Shown: piece after piece, positions 2,676 through 22,890 of the stretch
Layout: each line of letters begins with the position of its first letter
Numbering within the stretch: position 1 is the first letter of the stretch
Source of the DNA: Geosiphon pyriformis
Lineage: Eukaryota > Glomeromycota > Glomeromycetes > Archaeosporales > Geosiphonaceae
Assembly: GCA_016748015.1 (NCBI GenBank)
Contig: JAAOMT010000551.1
Location: 1-22,890 of the forward strand
DNA: 22,890 nt
Direction of reading: 5' to 3'
The notes under the pieces: model-generated
Told to the model about the DNA's origin: nothing
The model's input: only the letters and a program-made list of their open reading frames with translations
Database searches by the model: none
Translations under genes and position numbers: made by a program

Positions 2676-4410
2676 TTAGAAAAAAATCATATTCTGGTAA
2701 GTAAGTTAATTTGCTACTAAATATAAGATATGTTATTCTAAAGTATATTAAAAATATTAAGCTATAATATTACAAAGTATATTATAATCTGAAATAATTT
2801 GACTTTAATTGAGATAAATAATTACTTACTTCTTTTATTTATCTTAACTAGAAAAACTTTTCAATGTATTTAGTCTTTTTACTTCACGATAACTTCTTAT
2901 TTTCATAATTAGTATGTTTTTACAAATATTTAAATATCTTTAATAATCTTTTTAATATAAATAAATAAATAGTAATTCAACTTATATAATGACTAAAGCT
3001 AAAAACAACATTGAATCTTATAAAAAAATTGAAATAGTACTTGTAATTTTGATTAAGCAACAGATTATATCAAATAACAATTATGAGTCTTAAAATAATA
3101 ACATACTTGTATATAGTTTTATTAATAAAGTAATATCTAGTCTTAGATTTCAAATGTTAAATAAAACAATTCAAATTTTTTTCCACTAATTACTAAAGAT
3201 AGTAAAATTTGAAGTTTGTTAAAAAATTATAAACACAATAACAAATCCAAAATTTTTTTGACATAAATACATTTGATATAAAGTAAAAAAAAAAATTAAT
3301 CTTAGTAGTTTATTATTTTTATTTTTATCTGAGTTTAAGACTGACTTTCTAAGTTGAGTTTTTTTATTTTAATATATAATGCTAAATATGTATTGTTAAA
3401 ATAATTATTTACTGCATTAAAAAGTGGCTGAAGTTCTTAGATCAAATCCTGAACACACTTATAATGCTTCTGAAAATATGTAAAAGCAGAATTTAAAATG
3501 ACATATGGTATATTATTATTATTGGTAAAACAATTAAAATATTTTATTAAATTTTTGATGAATTAGTTAGATTAATGAAAAAACTTATTAAAGTTTGTTT
3601 ATAATATTGATTTACTATTACTTGTATAGTTTTTATGGTCAGGTGGTTATTGAAATTGAAAAAATCTATTATTATTTTACCAATTGCATTTTTAAAACAC
3701 TTAGGTTTAGAAACATACTTGTAACTATTTAAATAAATATCACTTACAATCTTTTTAGTTGCTTTATTTACTATAAAAAGTTTATTATTTGGATAATATA
3801 AGAATACATTTAGGATATTATAAAGTTTTATAGGACTTTTTTGGATTTTTATATGTAGTTTGTATATGTGTTTTGTTTTTTTTTTATAGGTAATAGCAAT
3901 AATGTCAAAATTTTTAATTTTTTCAAAACTTGTCTATTGTTCAAACTTTTCTCATAGTTTTAGCATAAAAAATTTTATATTTCAACAATTTTAAATATTA
4001 AGTAAATGCTAAGAATTCTTTATTGTTATTGGAAATTAAATTAGTTGTATTTATTTTAATAATATGTCCTTAAAATTTATTTTCTAAAAGTTTTTTAATA
4101 AGATTATTAGATTTAAAGTTCTTATAAATCTAATATAACTAAAGATTTTTTTTTTATAAGTTTGCAAGTCTCCACTTGTGTTTTGTGCTAAGAAAAAAAT
4201 ATGATAAATATAAAAATATGTAGATATTAAAGAGATAATATATTTTAAAGAATATAAATTTTAAAAAAAATAAAAAGAATACACACAAAAAATTTCTTAT
4301 TTTATAGACAGCTTGGAGGTTTTAAAAAACATATTGGATTTTTTTTTTACTAAAAGACAATAATAATTTGGTAACTTATTCTTGAAGATAAAATATATAA
4401 AGTAAAACTT
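2676..4410. other. AT-rich stretch without a recognisable gene
   Basis: No domain, RNA gene or transposon end was recognised. The stretch 3560-4010 has a frame with relatively few stops, but its translation is simple Phe/Leu/Ile-rich sequence, as expected from T-rich DNA, so I do not call it a gene. A short piece at 3424-3480 has coding-like codon variety but is too short to interpret. Confidence 0.5.
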
Positions 4411-4440
4411 TGCAAGGGAGGGTTCAATCAGCCCCTAGAC

Positions 4441-4459
4441 CTGTCTCTTATACACATCT
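4441..4459 (+). other. Tn5/Nextera transposase mosaic end (sequencing adapter in assembly)
   Basis: These 19 bases are exactly the reverse complement of the Tn5 mosaic end used in Nextera-type library preparation. They end a short GC-richer block (4411-4459) that stands out from its surroundings. No natural Tn5-type element surrounds it. Eight bases at 4519-4526 (AGATGTGT) repeat the outer end of the same sequence in opposite orientation. The simplest reading is adapter read-through or a chimeric fragment built into the contig, so the two sides of 4411-4526 may not be neighbours in the genome. Confidence 0.9.
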
Positions 4460-4477
4460 AAGGTAAGCAATTTACTT

Positions 4478-4518
4478 TATAATTTGTTTCAAATTATATA
4501 TGAATCAATAATGATTCA
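4478..4518. repeat. Two adjacent perfect inverted repeats
   Basis: TATAATTTG at 4478-4486 pairs with CAAATTATA at 4490-4498 around a 3-base loop. TGAATCA at 4501-4507 pairs with TGATTCA at 4512-4518 around a 4-base loop. Both lie between the mosaic end and its 8-base inverted echo. They could be natural AT hairpins or junk from chimera formation during amplification. Confidence 0.6.
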
Positions 4519-4526
4519 GATGTGTT

Positions 4527-4865
4527 TGTTCAATTTAAGCTAAATAATATAAATATTAATATATTTTCTTTTTGTAATTTCTTTATAACTATTTTTAATT
4601 ATATAAAAATTTATAAACAAAGCTAAAAAAGTTAAAGATTGAAAATTCTCTGAAATTCTTCTTGTAGTTATAGATAATCTTTCTTTTTTATATGTACAAG
4701 ATATTACTTTTTTTTTAAAGTTATTTTTTAACAAAAATTTCTTAGATTTATTATTATTATTATTTAGATAATACAATATAAAAAAGCTGTTAAGTTTATA
4801 AAATGTTTAAGTTTAAAATGATTTCTAAAATACAACTCTTAATTTTATTGCTTTGAAATTAGATT
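4527..4865. other. AT-rich stretch without a recognisable gene
   Basis: A 78-codon minus-strand open frame at 4540-4776 is Asn/Lys/Ile low-complexity sequence and is treated as chance. Nothing else was seen. Confidence 0.5.
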
Positions 4866-5410
4866 ATTTTATTAATATAACCAGTTTTTTGAATTAATTT
4901 AATTTACTAGTCAACAAAATATTCAACACAAAGTTTTTTATATTAAAATTTTTTATTTTCTAAATAAAAATTGTAAAAACTTAAACCTAAAAAATAATTT
5001 AATTTATTTTATTTAATATAAATTTCTAATAAAGTGTTTATTTATAACATAATTAAAAAAATAGAATGCCATTTTTTTACAATAAAAACCAGCTTTTTTT
5101 TATATATCTTGTTTTAAAAAATAAAATATAGGCTTACAGTGAAAAAATTATACATTATTTATATTACAAAAATTTTTATATTGAATAAAATAAGTTTTTA
5201 ATTTATTATTTAATAAATATTTAACACAAGATTTTAAATATTAAAATTTTTCATTTTTTAAAAACATAAATTGTAAAAACTTAAATTGATATTTTTAATT
5301 TAACTTATTTAATATAAATTTTTGATAAAATATTTATTTATAATATAATTATAATATAATTAAATATAGACTTATTGTAAAAAAAGTTATATGTTATTTC
5401 TTATAAACTA
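4866..5410. repeat. Degenerate tandem duplication, about 300-bp unit
   Basis: The segment from about 4866 to 5165 is repeated, with divergence, from about 5166 to 5410. The clearest anchors are AACACAA followed by an AT-rich stretch and TTGTAAAAACTTAAA (4924 onward versus 5223 onward, offset about 299), then TTTAATATAAATTT, and the pair GGCTTACAGTGAAAAAA (about 5131) and GACTTATTGTAAAAAAA (about 5368). The second copy lacks about 60 bases present in the first. No coding sequence or terminal repeats are visible, so this may be an old local duplication or two nested copies of a small non-coding element. Confidence 0.6.
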
Positions 5411-7722
5411 TAATATACTAAGAAAATTTATTAAATATTTTGGAATATTTAATTAACTTACTAATTTGGTTAATTAATAATAAAATATTCAAATATATAT
5501 AAAAAATTAAACTAATTTTTGGTTTTTAAGTAGATTAAACATTAATTATTAAATACTTTTTGGATTAATTAATTATTTGTTTGTTTTGCTGTATTATATA
5601 TATATATTTTTATTATTTTTATATAATAAATTTATCTTATTTAAATATTTAAGCTTTTTAGATAATTTAGCTAAAAAATACTTATTTAATTAATATAAAT
5701 TAAGTAAGAATTATTGGTGTTTTTTTTACAAAATTAGGTTTTATTTAATTTGTTTTTTTAATTAAAAATGTTTTTTTGTTATTTAAAAAGTTTATTAATG
5801 TAAATTGAAAAAAGAAAATATTGATTAATCAGTTTTGTTTTGGTTTTAATTTTAATAAAAACAAAAGTTTTTATTAGGATTTTAATTATTTTGTAAAGAT
5901 TTAAATATTTAAATCAAATTTTAATGTAATTGTAATAATTTTAATTAATTTTAATATTATTTCTTGTTTTATTAATAAAAATTTACAAATTAACAAAATA
6001 TATTAATTATAAATAAATATTATTTTATATTATTAAAAATTATTAATAATTGATTTATTATTTTTGAAAATATTAAATAAAAAACTTATTAATTAATTTT
6101 TAATATTATAAAAAGTTTATTTTATGTTGTTATTTTTAAGTTTTTTGGTTATAGTTGTATTATTTGATAATTAATTAAAAAAACACAAAATTAAGTTAAT
6201 CTAAAATATGTAAATTCTTACAGAAATTGAGAAATAATTATTGAAAAATTCCAGTTAATACTTTAAAAATAGCTATATAATTGATTTTTTAAATTTAGTT
6301 AAGTTGTATTAATTAAACTATAGTTTATTGTTTTTGGCAAAAAATTGTTGCTAAGTTTATTAAATTAAGCCAAACTAATTTGGTGGCTTTTAAATAGTTT
6401 GTTTTAATTAAAAAAATACTATATATATTATTAAAATTAATATAAACAAGACTTTTTAATGAAAAAAAAACAAATATTAAGTTTTGTTTATTATCTTATT
6501 TATAAACACAGATGCTTATATTTTTTTGAAATATAATTCTACTGAAAAAAAAATTTATTTTTAAAAAGGTTTTATTTTTTATTAAATTTTGGATAAATAC
6601 TGATAACTTGTAATTTTGTAAAATAATTATGTTTATTTAATCATCATAATTAATAATTTTTATAAGTACTTGTAAATTATATTTAATAATAATTTATTTT
6701 GTTTAAATTATTGAAACTCAAATTACTGAAAATTTAATTTTTTGCTTAATCTGCTTATAAATAAAAAATTACATATATTTTTACATTTAATTTTTGTTTT
6801 TTTAAATTCAATGATAAAGCTTTATTAAATATTTAAAAATAAGTAATATTATAATGTATTGTTTTAGAGCTTTAAGTTTTTTCATTAAAAATTATATAAA
6901 ATAATATTTTAATATTGAATTGTATTTATAACAAAAACTTTAATTAAATAATAATTTTATTAATAAAAAAAACTTTTAAATTAACTAAAATAAAACTTTA
7001 AAATAAATACAATTTTACATAATAAAGCTTTATTATTAAAAAACTTATTTATTTTACATAATAAATTATTATTATTTAATTATTAATTAACAATATAATA
7101 TATTATTATTAAATATTACACATAATTTTAATATTAAACAAATATTATACATATTAAAATAAATTAATATAATTTGTTTTGTGTTTGAAATTATGTTAAT
7201 ATTATAAAGTTATTCTTAATATTTAATATTTTTAAAATTTTTTCTTATTTAAAGTTTTTTCTAAGTGACTAATTAAAATTAGTTAAATATAATTATGACT
7301 GAAACAAAGAATCTTAAGATTTTTAACAACAAAATAGTAACCAAGCTATTTTTTGCAACTTTTTTTATATATTGTTTAAATAGTAATAAAAACCAGAAAA
7401 AAATATTTTTTGTGTTTTTTAGAGTGCTACTTTTACTTTAAAGTCTGAATTTTTTTTAGTGAGAAACATAACATTAATTTTATTTAGTTTTTTTGGTGTT
7501 TATATTAATTCTATTACAATAATATTAATTATAAGCTTAATTTAAATTTAATTATAAACAATATTTTTATTATTTAAATAATAATAATAATAAATAATAT
7601 ATCTGTTAATAATAAGTTAATTATTAAAAATTAAAACTAGTTTTATGACTGATACATTAAGCTATTCTATATGTTCAAAAATAAATCTAATATAAAAGAT
7701 ATTTATTTTGTAATTAATTTAG
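5411..7722. other. Extremely AT-rich stretch without a recognisable gene
   Basis: This is the most AT-rich part of the window, dominated by runs of A, T, TTAATTAA and TATA-like sequence. A short (TA)n run lies near 5594. Stops are dense in all frames. No inverted terminal repeats with target duplications and no coding relic were recognised. Confidence 0.6.
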
Positions 7723-15431: not shown

Positions 15432-15873
15432 GGCTATTCGAATGCTAAATTGTAAATTACTGGTAAGTATAGTAATTTGAATGTTAAGATACAAATTATT
15501 AATAGATAATGGTTATTTAAATGTTGAGTTGTGAATTATTGGTAAGTAATAGTTATTTAAATATTAAATTTGCATATTTTTAATAAGTCGTGGTTATCAA
15601 ATATTGAGTTGAATTATTGGTAGATAGTGGTTATATTTAAATGTTAAATTTGCATATTTTTGATGGCTATTAGTTATTTGAATGTTGAATTACAAAATAT
15701 TGATGAGTGATTATATTCAAATGTTGAATTGCAAATTATTAGTAAATAATAGTTATTCGAATATTGAATTTATATATTTTTAATAAATAGTAGTTATTTA
15801 AATATTAAGTTGTAAATTATTGATAAATAATGGTTATTTGAATTTTGAATTTGTAAATTATTGATAGACAGTA
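15432..15873. repeat. Minisatellite, eleven tandem copies of a 37-43-bp unit
   Basis: Eleven head-to-tail copies start at 15432, 15472, 15512, 15552, 15593, 15630, 15673, 15711, 15752, 15793 and 15833. The left half of the unit is conserved (GTTATTTGAATGTTGAATT-like). The right half has two versions: type A (TGTAAATTATTGGTAAGTA-like) and type B (TTGCATATTTTTAATAAGT-like). Units 4, 6 and 9 are type B and the others A or A-like. No open frame crosses the array. Two variants interspersed along an old array suggest expansion by unequal exchange of multi-unit blocks. Confidence 0.88.
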
Positions 15874-15995
15874 ATTATTTATCAATTATTAATATCAAAT
15901 TAGAGTTAAGCTTAATAAAGTCTTCTTTTCCTGCCAATTTTGCCAAGCCTGTTCTGTTGGCTGTAGTTTCACTAGATAATAGATAGGAATAGTTT

Positions 15996-16272
15996 AACTC
16001 ATAATGCACATCAATAACTATAAGTTGAAACAAATATTTAGTTGGAATGCAGGAAGCACAGAAGTTAAATAACAATTCATATTATTGATTATAAGTAAAA
16101 GCAAACATTTGGCAGAATGTGTACATGTACAGAGATATAACAATTCATGTTATTAACTATCAATAGAAGCAAACATTCAGCAGAATAAGAACATATACAA
16201 AGATATAATAATTTATGTTATAGACTGTAAGTAAAAACAGACATTTGGCAGAATAGTATATGTACAGTAGTT
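15996..16272. repeat. Minisatellite, three clear and one degenerate copy of a 68-bp unit
   Basis: Copies at 16071-16138 and 16139-16206 are both exactly 68 bp, and a third runs from 16207 to about 16272. Each has AACAATTCATGTTATTGACT-like sequence, then AAGCAAACATTTGGCAGAAT and GTACATGTACAGAGATAT. A diverged fourth copy precedes them at about 15996-16070. The array is unrelated in sequence to the 40-bp array that ends about 120 bases upstream. A 66-codon minus-strand open frame (15875-16075) spans the gap and first copy, but I recognise no protein in it. Confidence 0.85.
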
Positions 16273-20712: not shown

Positions 20713-21053
20713 CTTAACATTTTTAATATACCTGAGCTATTAGAACAGATCTTACATTTTTTAGCAAAAGATAAATCACTTTACCCAACTCTCTTCATTA
20801 ATAGACTTTGATATCATTCTTTTGTTCCAATTCTATGGTGACATATTAAGTTTTCACAGATCAATGTAACCAAAAGATGTCTTAAGTTTTTACTTGGCAG
20901 TTAATAAACTTTAAAAGAGTTATGTGTGGAATAATAAAGCCACTCGATTGCTCCAAGATAGTATATCTCTGATTAGAAGGTTTAAAAATCTCAGATGCAT
21001 TGATCAGTGCAATTCTGTGTTTATGCCCAGATATACGCTTTCTCATTTTTGAT
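20713..21053 (+). pseudogene. F-box/leucine-rich-repeat protein relic, 5' part
   Basis: The frame starting at 20713 gives an F-box (IFNIPELLEQILHFLAKDK, then SLYPTLFINRL, VPILW and HIKF). F-box proteins bind Skp1 through this motif and bring targets to SCF ubiquitin ligases. Stops sit where the family has conserved residues: TGA at 20809-20811 in place of the Trp after NRL, and TGA at 20839-20841 in place of Arg after PILW. The linker TLKELCVE follows (about 20900-20925). A second frame gives LIRRFKNLRC (20969-20998) and a third gives a leucine-rich repeat, LKISDALISAILCLCPDIRF (20982-21041). At 21051 the frame runs without a break into a BTB domain, so the rest of the LRR array is missing. 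A start codon is not evident; an intron ending at TTTCCAG (about 20688) is possible. Confidence 0.75.
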
Positions 21054-22351
21054 GCTCATTCACAAATTTTAGCAGCAAGATCACCATATTTTGCCATAGT
21101 GCTCTTTAACAATTGGGTTAAAAGGGTAAATAATACCATTATCTTTGCTAAGCCTAATATTTTACCTAATATTTTTGAATTATTTATCAGGTAAGGTTTT
21201 CTTTTACTTCAAGGTATTTAACAAACATCAATTTTTATGTTTTATTTTCCTGTAGATCTCTTTTGATGAACATAGAGTACCTATTATTTTAGAATTGCTT
21301 ATTGCCGTTAACGAACTTATTCTAGAGAATCTTATTGATCATCTTGAAGACTATTTAATTGAACACTATACAAAAGAGTTAGAAGAGAATTTTGCCACTC
21401 AAAGAAAACTTCATTATGCACCAAAATAGCTGCTAACAATCCAGCTATAGTCTTCAACTCACAAGATTTCATCTTCCTTAGTGAAAATGCTTTTTCTTTA
21501 ATTTTAACTCGGAATGACTTAAATATAGAAGAATCTAAGATCTGGGAAAAGATTGTGGAATGGGGAGTTGCTAAATTGGATAACAATATTCAGTTGAAAA
21601 AAGTTTTTTACTGGACAGATGAAAACTTTAACGCTTTTAAGGAATCTATTGAAATGCTTCTACCTTTAATCTGCTTCTTTAATATATCTTCAGTTAACTA
21701 CTATCACAGAGTAAACCATTTGTGAGAATCTTACTTGGAACTCTATATGAAGATCTTTTACATCATTATCTCATACCGAGTAGTCATCAAAAGTCTGTAG
21801 ACACTCAGCCATTATGATTAAATATTGATTCAAAGCTTCTTCAATCACATAATATAAAACAGATAGATCATTGGATTCAAGACAAAGACAAAAATACTCT
21901 TTTTGGAGATTAAGTTGAAAATAATTTTAAATTGTTACTTCAAAGCAGTTGAAACGGATTTACTCCAGCTGATTTTCATCGATTATGCGATGGTAAAGAA
22001 GCAACAGTTAGCGTAATCAAAGTGAAAGGAACTGATTAGCTAATTGGTGGCTATAACTCACACTCGTGGTATTCTAAGGATGAATTTTTGAAGGGAAAAG
22101 GAAGTTTTATTTTTTTCCTTAGAGATGGCAAAGCTAGAAATGCTCAACTTGGCAAATTTGTTGACAAATTTGGACTTTATGGTGGGCTAGACTATGGACC
22201 CATGTTTGGAATGAATTTTATATTACATGGCAATGATTTTTAAAATAGTTTAGGGTGGTATTGTGCAAATAAAAGAAACTATGAGCATGTTGTAATGTCT
22301 GTGTCAGAAGATCACGGGGATTTCTTTGTCAAGGAGTATGAGGTTTTTTAA
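21054..22351 (+). pseudogene. BTB-BACK-TLDc protein relic
   Basis: Proteins with this domain order are a large family in arbuscular mycorrhizal fungi. BTB and BACK usually mediate dimerisation and Cullin-3 contact; TLDc domains are linked to oxidative-stress and V-ATPase functions. The BTB part starts at AHSQILAARSPYF (21057) and runs to ELFIR (21191). Its N-terminal strands are absent, replaced by the F-box/LRR relic. A 65-bp intron-like sequence follows, but the exons do not join in phase and the expected YIY-G motif is lost. ISFDEHRVPIILELLIAVNE resumes at 21256. A frameshift near 21398 leads into the BACK part (IAANNPAIVFNSQDF, NIEESKIWEKIVEWGVAKLD), and another near 21712 into the last frame. 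There the TLDc domain (GFTPADFHRLCD, VSVIKVKGT, LIGGYNSHSWYS, DYGPMFGMNF) is interrupted by stops at 21815-21817, 21911-21913, 21950-21952, 22037-22039 and 22241-22243, before the natural end at 22349-22351. Confidence 0.93.
21191..21255 (+). other. Probable intron in the BTB-BACK-TLDc relic
   Basis: GTAAGG follows ATCAG at the 5' side and a pyrimidine-rich tract ends in TGTAG at the 3' side. The 65-bp size matches other introns here. Splicing leaves the downstream BTB frame out of phase by one or two bases, so a small deletion accompanied decay of the exon end. Confidence 0.6.
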
Positions 22352-22890
22352 ATCATAAAAAGATAAAATTGGTTTTATTTAATTTGATTATATATTTTTC
22401 AAAAGTTATGCACCCTATTCTGGAAATTTCCACCAACAGAATATTCTATATCTTGCTGCTTTAAGACGCAAAATAAAGTTAAAAAACGATAACAAGTTTT
22501 AGAAAAAACTTTAAAATTTATAATTATTTTAATAAAAAGTAATTGTTAAAGTGAAGGTTTTTATCATAGGCTAAAACCAAAAAATGCTCGTTAGCACTTT
22601 TATTCCCATAGAACGCCTCATAAATAATATAATCTACTTTCAATCTACTTATCAATTCAAAAGAAATGCTATTTAAGCTTTATAATCTTTATTATGGCAA
22701 GCAATAGTATGTTTTTGTGTTTAAAGACTGCTCGAATGTTACATGTGTAAATGTAATTCACATATTATACAAACTCCCAATTTCCAATACATGGTTCACC
22801 AAATGTTATGAATTCAATTTAGGATTTGAGACTTAATAGAAAAATAATTAATTAATTCAGGATTTTTAAGGTGGCATAGATTATTGTGTG
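22352..22890. other. AT-rich stretch without a recognisable gene
   Basis: Downstream of the TLDc relic no coding block, RNA gene or repeat boundary was recognised before the window ends. Composition is slightly less AT-biased than upstream, and no polyadenylation signal could be singled out from the A/T background. Confidence 0.5.

Follow-up and report, generated by a model that had tools for sequence, protein, structure and literature searches.

The window analysed here, a stretch of 22,890 nucleotides that is the entire contig C31 of the 124.7-Mb, 406-contig assembly of Geosiphon pyriformis, contains a single Tn5 mosaic end (ME) on its minus strand, exact at 19 of 19 positions (Table 1). 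These 19 bases are almost certainly the remnant of a Tn5 adapter. The best explanation of the site, to which we give a probability of roughly 0.7, is such a remnant, with sequence ending in ME having been joined across a gap in the assembly; that the join was computational is, taken by itself, likely. The contig is probably wrong locally at this point, and the 19 ME bases should be masked. ME sites of this kind are an ordinary technical artefact and have no bearing on the biology of the organism. An earlier sequence-only reading of the window spotted the site correctly and over-read it as a false join.

The mosaic end in the window and its copies in the assembly

Chance does not account for the match. 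One of 100 dinucleotide shuffles of the window contained an ME with up to three mismatches (mean 0.01), and the exact 19-mer occurs 99 times in the assembly (48 copies on the plus and 51 on the minus strand), while a reversed control sequence gave no match. The sequence-only reading had described the match as perfect and beyond chance and had proposed tagmented DNA as its origin. Both claims hold, the second on the strength of the exact ME, its 99 copies and a Tn5 target bias confined to one side.

Ninety-six loci were fetched, which together cover all 99 sites (script count 99). ME was read throughout as AGATGTGTATAAGAGACAG, its upstream side being designated U and its downstream side D. No flank common to the copies was found on U or D among the 99 sites. 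Both sides look like host sequence, with many flanks lying in repeat families, and end points coincide in only two pairs, L038/L095 on the U side and L033/L069 on the D side. The end of a transposon or repeat was rejected on these grounds. A real genomic element of any kind, whether the end of a repeat or a Tn5-type insertion in vivo, has next to no probability: a repeat end would indeed give 99 identical copies, but no common sequence adjoins these on either side, and an excerpt of PMC3046479 describes the ME as a hyperactive derivative of 19 bp for use in vitro.

The two sides differ in their fit to the target preference of Tn5, for which an excerpt of the same paper (PMC3046479) gives the 9-bp consensus AGNTYWRANCT. 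Over the 99 sites the consensus score was 3.64 of 7 on the D side against a background of 2.69 (z 7.9), and 2.78 on the U side against a background of 2.71 (z 0.6). Among the 99 D sequences G1 was present in 34, Y4 in 78, W5 in 85, R6 in 74 and C9 in 30. T2 (48/99) and A8 (53/99) were enriched; T3 (29/99) and A7 (30/99) were not, although both belong to the consensus, so that the preference is seen as a whole only. It lies beside the ACAG end of the ME and not at the other end. Therefore D, unlike U, starts where Tn5 has cut. Since no flank is common to all copies, and since the Tn5 consensus fits only after the terminal ACAG, the ME in the window is an adapter and not a transposon end. The bias behind the target stretch listed for the window in Table 1 is the one measured over all 99 sites and is not derived from that site alone.

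No exact Nextera S5 or N7 (i5/i7) stem, ISPCR sequence or TruSeq stub was present in the 96 fetched loci, and the TruSeq stub was absent genome-wide. With the Nextera stems missing from these loci, the evidence is for the ME as such and not for its Illumina form. Full ends number 99 and matches to a 15-nt suffix of the ME 102, so that only 3 ends are 1-4 nt shorter on the AGAT side; the search covered exact ends, either full-length or with up to 4 nt missing on that side. There is little or no microhomology at the junctions. At the 28 sites with a comparable copy (L038 and L095, each of which matches the other, were set aside) the bases that natively follow U match the start of the ME over 0-3 positions, and mispriming via microhomology was rejected on this basis.

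The idea that the copies are enriched near contig ends was rejected, since 7 of the 99 lie within 5 kb of an end and 5.4 would be expected. ME density was 16 per Mb in small and 1.6 per Mb in large ME-bearing contigs, a comparison that is biased in that contigs free of ME are uncounted. No ME touches a run of Ns directly within the fetched 300-bp flanks. L073 (C331) has a 20-N gap about 70 bases before its ME. At L008 (C134:56914-56971) two oppositely oriented MEs are separated by just 20 bases. L038 (C268:148625) and L095 (C403:108400) have the same U end to the base and different D sides, which is unexplained; the two copies show three internal differences and, at the far end, a difference of one base.

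The window site and its paralogues

The region from 3441 to 5459 of the window served as the query for similarity. Six copies of the part around 3350-4440 were fetched, with 72-96% identity, and at least one more is present among the matches listed. Four of the fetched paralogues have the left flank only; C357 and C378 have both flanks.

Table 1. Features of the window discussed in the text
Feature	Position	Strand	Remarks
Tn5 ME, 19 nt	4441..4459	-	AGATGTGTATAAGAGACAG on minus strand; exact; adapter remnant, not genome
Tn5 target stretch, 9 bp, adjoining the ACAG end	4432..4440	-	GTCTAGGGG on minus strand; position set by the ME
AGATGTGT, partial ME match	4518..4525	+	Native, present in paralogue C357; not adapter
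Native left flank (D side)	3175..4440		Collinear with paralogues; takes in 4411-4440
Native right flank (U side)	4460..5688		Orientation as in C357 and C378
Tandem array	15450..15881		Period 40/81 bp
Tandem array	16069..16267		Period 68 bp
BTB reading frame	20973..21194	+	Just below Pfam cut-off
BACK reading frame	21363..21725	+	Above Pfam cut-off
TLDc-like motif	22040..22243		Recognised by eye

In C357 (95-96% identity) the flanks lie on one strand and in the same order with about 1.48 kb between them (skipped length 1481); the left flank is 95.8% identical over 3175-4431 and the right flank 94.5% over 4459-5688. In C378 (79-88%) order and orientation are again the same and the distance is about 1.16 kb (skipped length 1159), with identities of 79% over 3350-4440 and 87% over 4453-5671. 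The middle of the C378 interval consists of 484 Ns, and its GC content is 0.311 without the Ns (0.181 if they are counted). Since the intervals of C357 and C378 match each other at both ends, the interval is probably ancestral and missing from the window at 4440/4460. In other words, the window probably lacks about 1.2-1.5 kb of neighbouring sequence at this point. Within the 29.5 kb of C357 that were compared, homology to the window is limited to the common segment 903-6200 (88-96% identity) and to 21045-22484 at 78%. C357 is thus, judged by its sequence, a paralogue of the window segment and not an allele. C357 and C378 represent other loci, and a real local rearrangement may have taken place at the window site.

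The sequence-only reading had suggested that the two sides of the ME may be a false join of unrelated loci, lying between 4440 and 4527. An adapter inside a contig is a usual sign of a misjoin, and the comparison made here is with paralogues and not with the locus itself; but in the two copies spanning both flanks, C357 and C378, these are collinear and have the same orientation, and a false join is very improbable. The same reading held any synteny across this point to be unsafe. Because the flanks are collinear with 1.16-1.49 kb more between them, the coarse order, which is kept in C357 and C378, holds; the local sequence looks incomplete.

A similar distinction applies to a GC-richer block that had been delimited at 4411-4459. 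Only 4441-4459 is foreign. The stretch 4411-4440 is native host sequence, with 59 of 61 identities to C378 over 4380-4440, and a contaminant as the source of the block is thereby ruled out. The alignments with four more paralogues stop at 4440 or, for one of the four, at 4450. An inverted 8-mer, AGATGTGT, had been placed at 4519-4526, one base off, and taken as a second piece of adapter. It occurs natively in C357, so there is no second adapter piece. As both 4411-4440 and the 8-mer are native, the adapter junctions in the window lie at 4440/4441 and 4459/4460 and do not extend from 4440 to 4527. Towards the far end of the window the BTB and BACK frames and the TLDc-like motif (20973-22243) probably belong to a split eukaryotic gene.

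Junctions across the assembly and their possible origin

All 99 sites were mapped on 11 fetched stretches, and 30 junctions could be placed with both sides on one strand; the remaining sites yielded no usable match pair on these stretches. Pairs were discarded if fewer than 40 bases aligned or if an alignment ended more than 5 (U) or 6 (D) bases short of the junction. Also discarded were L058, which matched on opposite strands only and with a weak D match, and the opposite-strand alternatives of L009, L064, L075, L076 and L086. L005 is outside the 30 because its D match stops short of the junction. Paralogues or further copies of repeats stood in for the loci themselves as reference, the placements of L015 and L051 are weak (64-86%), and a site whose two sides are far apart cannot be caught in this way.

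From U to D, 24 of the 30 placed junctions jump forward on the same strand by 296-4214 bp, 23 of them by 296-2149 bp; the longest jump, of 4214 bp, is that of L082. Searches with single sites agree with this, the skipped lengths being 359 bp at L042, 463-476 bp at L029 in closer copies, 966 bp at L063, 1012 and 1036 bp at L053 and about 2.1 kb at L076; for L079 two copies gave 612 and 719 bp, and in the mapping two others gave about 830 bp. The other six (L033, L056, L059, L081, L083 and L096-) jump backward by 140-5822 bp, although for L033 and L056 the jump may be a forward one, should their D sit in a second terminal repeat. Outside the placed set, L005 shows a forward skip of about 187 bp. 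Because most placed junctions jump forward, an ME usually marks what is, by comparison with related copies, a collinear omission.

In 3 of 26 site-copy pairs the skipped interval contains, or is overlapped by, a run of Ns, namely C378 for the window (484 N), C207, the nearest copy, for L005 (a run of 341 N) and C366 for L051 (99 N); the other 23 pairs are without N. Ten N runs occur in the fetched stretches; their sizes are various, two being 20 N long. The omitted intervals show no consistent trend towards AT-richness, and dropout of AT-rich sequence was rejected as their cause. A complete ME-890 bp-ME fragment is contained within contig C406 (L096/L103, C406:84162-85089). In a native copy, C252, its flanks are separated by 809 bp of other sequence, and the 890 bp are found 361 bp further on. 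A run of at least 1974 Ns follows about 540 bp after the fragment in C406.

A likely explanation lies in the way in which gaps were closed. A double-stranded Tn5 adapter end stayed on sequence that was taken into the assembly, as the exact ME, its 99 copies and the one-sided Tn5 bias show. At each site a piece opening with ME and a Tn5 cut point (D) adjoins an unrelated break point (U). On paralogous or other repeat copies the two usually match one locus in the right order, with some of the sequence between them missing (24 of the 30 placed junctions). The join would have been made by the assembler, a scaffolder or a gap closer: in a hard or repetitive interval, sequence with an untrimmed ME end may have been taken as the edge or the filling of a gap, which was then closed while the remaining 0.3-2 kb were left out. 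We infer such a gap join from the N runs in skipped intervals, from the order and orientation of the flanks and from the full-length ends. The source of the ME could be a library of the LILAP type, a Nextera mate-pair library or ordinary Nextera reads with the stems trimmed.

Several findings speak against a misclosed gap. Six of the 30 jumps are backward, L082 skips 4214 bp, 23 of 26 intervals are free of Ns, and L038 and L095 share their U end. Moreover, no ME touches an N run, though contig ends left over beside open gaps might be expected. The main rival is a physical chimera arising in the wet lab, in which a tagmented ME end was joined by ligation to a broken molecule from the same region, or was copied on from it, the resulting chimeric read then entering the assembly. 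It keeps this place because the backward jumps, the 4.2-kb jump and the shared U end are not explained by gap closure, because of the missing contact between ME and N runs, and because junctions between distant loci cannot be placed by the method used. Full-length ME ends, a random-looking U and a Tn5-cut D would all fit end joining, as would the ME-flanked pieces, adjacent or complete, at L008 and L096. Random joining, however, should yield more inversions, backward jumps and distant partners, yet 24 of 30 jumps are forward and 23 of these span no more than 2149 bp, with L058 as one further site, on opposite strands only and with its weak D match. We therefore consider a library chimera rather unlikely and prefer the misclosed gap.

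In Nextera mate-pair libraries fragments are circularised, and each half of the circle junction is a 19-nt ME, two of them head to head giving 38 nt. A junction with a single ME, formed where one end was tagmented and the other broken, could have been built into the contig. A single ME without a stem would fit half a junction, and the six backward jumps of 140-5822 bp are of the expected kind; an excerpt of PMC6298255 describes tagmentation with junction adapters. But a circle must jump backward by the length of the fragment, while 24 of 30 jumps are forward, and the doubled 38-nt form is absent: no two of the 99 sites abut, the closest being 20 nt apart (C134). A mate-pair origin of the joins is accordingly quite improbable, well behind the misclosed gap.

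Consequences and comparison with known systems

Gene models, deletions and repeat breakpoints at the 99 ME places are untrustworthy without reads. We suggest tentatively, as a doubtful generalisation, that an exact stem-less 19-nt ME inside a contig might be a general and searchable scar of misclosed gaps, one that in this assembly usually marks a silent collinear omission of about 0.3-2 kb and not a chimera. If this is true, a scan of public assemblies for ME would bring to light deletions that may escape ordinary adapter screens. VecScreen sets its limit for internal matches above 19 bases; this would account for the passage of such remnants through deposition screens.

The sites resemble the known contamination of assemblies by Nextera/Tn5 adapters in the exact 19-nt ME and in the Tn5 target bias on the insert side. 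They differ from it in that no exact i5/i7 stem is found in the 96 loci, in that they are internal joins and not contig ends, and in that they mostly mark a collinear omission. The part of PMC11575248 that bears on the ME has it only together with its stems. The Nextera mate-pair junction adapter is similar in its tagmented ends, and its reads need the junction adapter trimmed according to an excerpt of PMC6298255; here a single 19-mer is seen instead of a doubled 38-mer, and 24 of 30 jumps are forward instead of backward.

Among the matches listed for a prior description of such scars, LILAP was the one directly relevant. As described in an excerpt of PMC11226609, LILAP is a Tn5 hairpin library for PacBio whose hairpin joins the PacBio adapter to the 19-bp ME; before assembly its authors trim adapter sequences of 19 bp from the ends of the reads. 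That LILAP was used for the source genome is a conjecture; going by this excerpt, untrimmed LILAP reads would end in an ME of the length found here.
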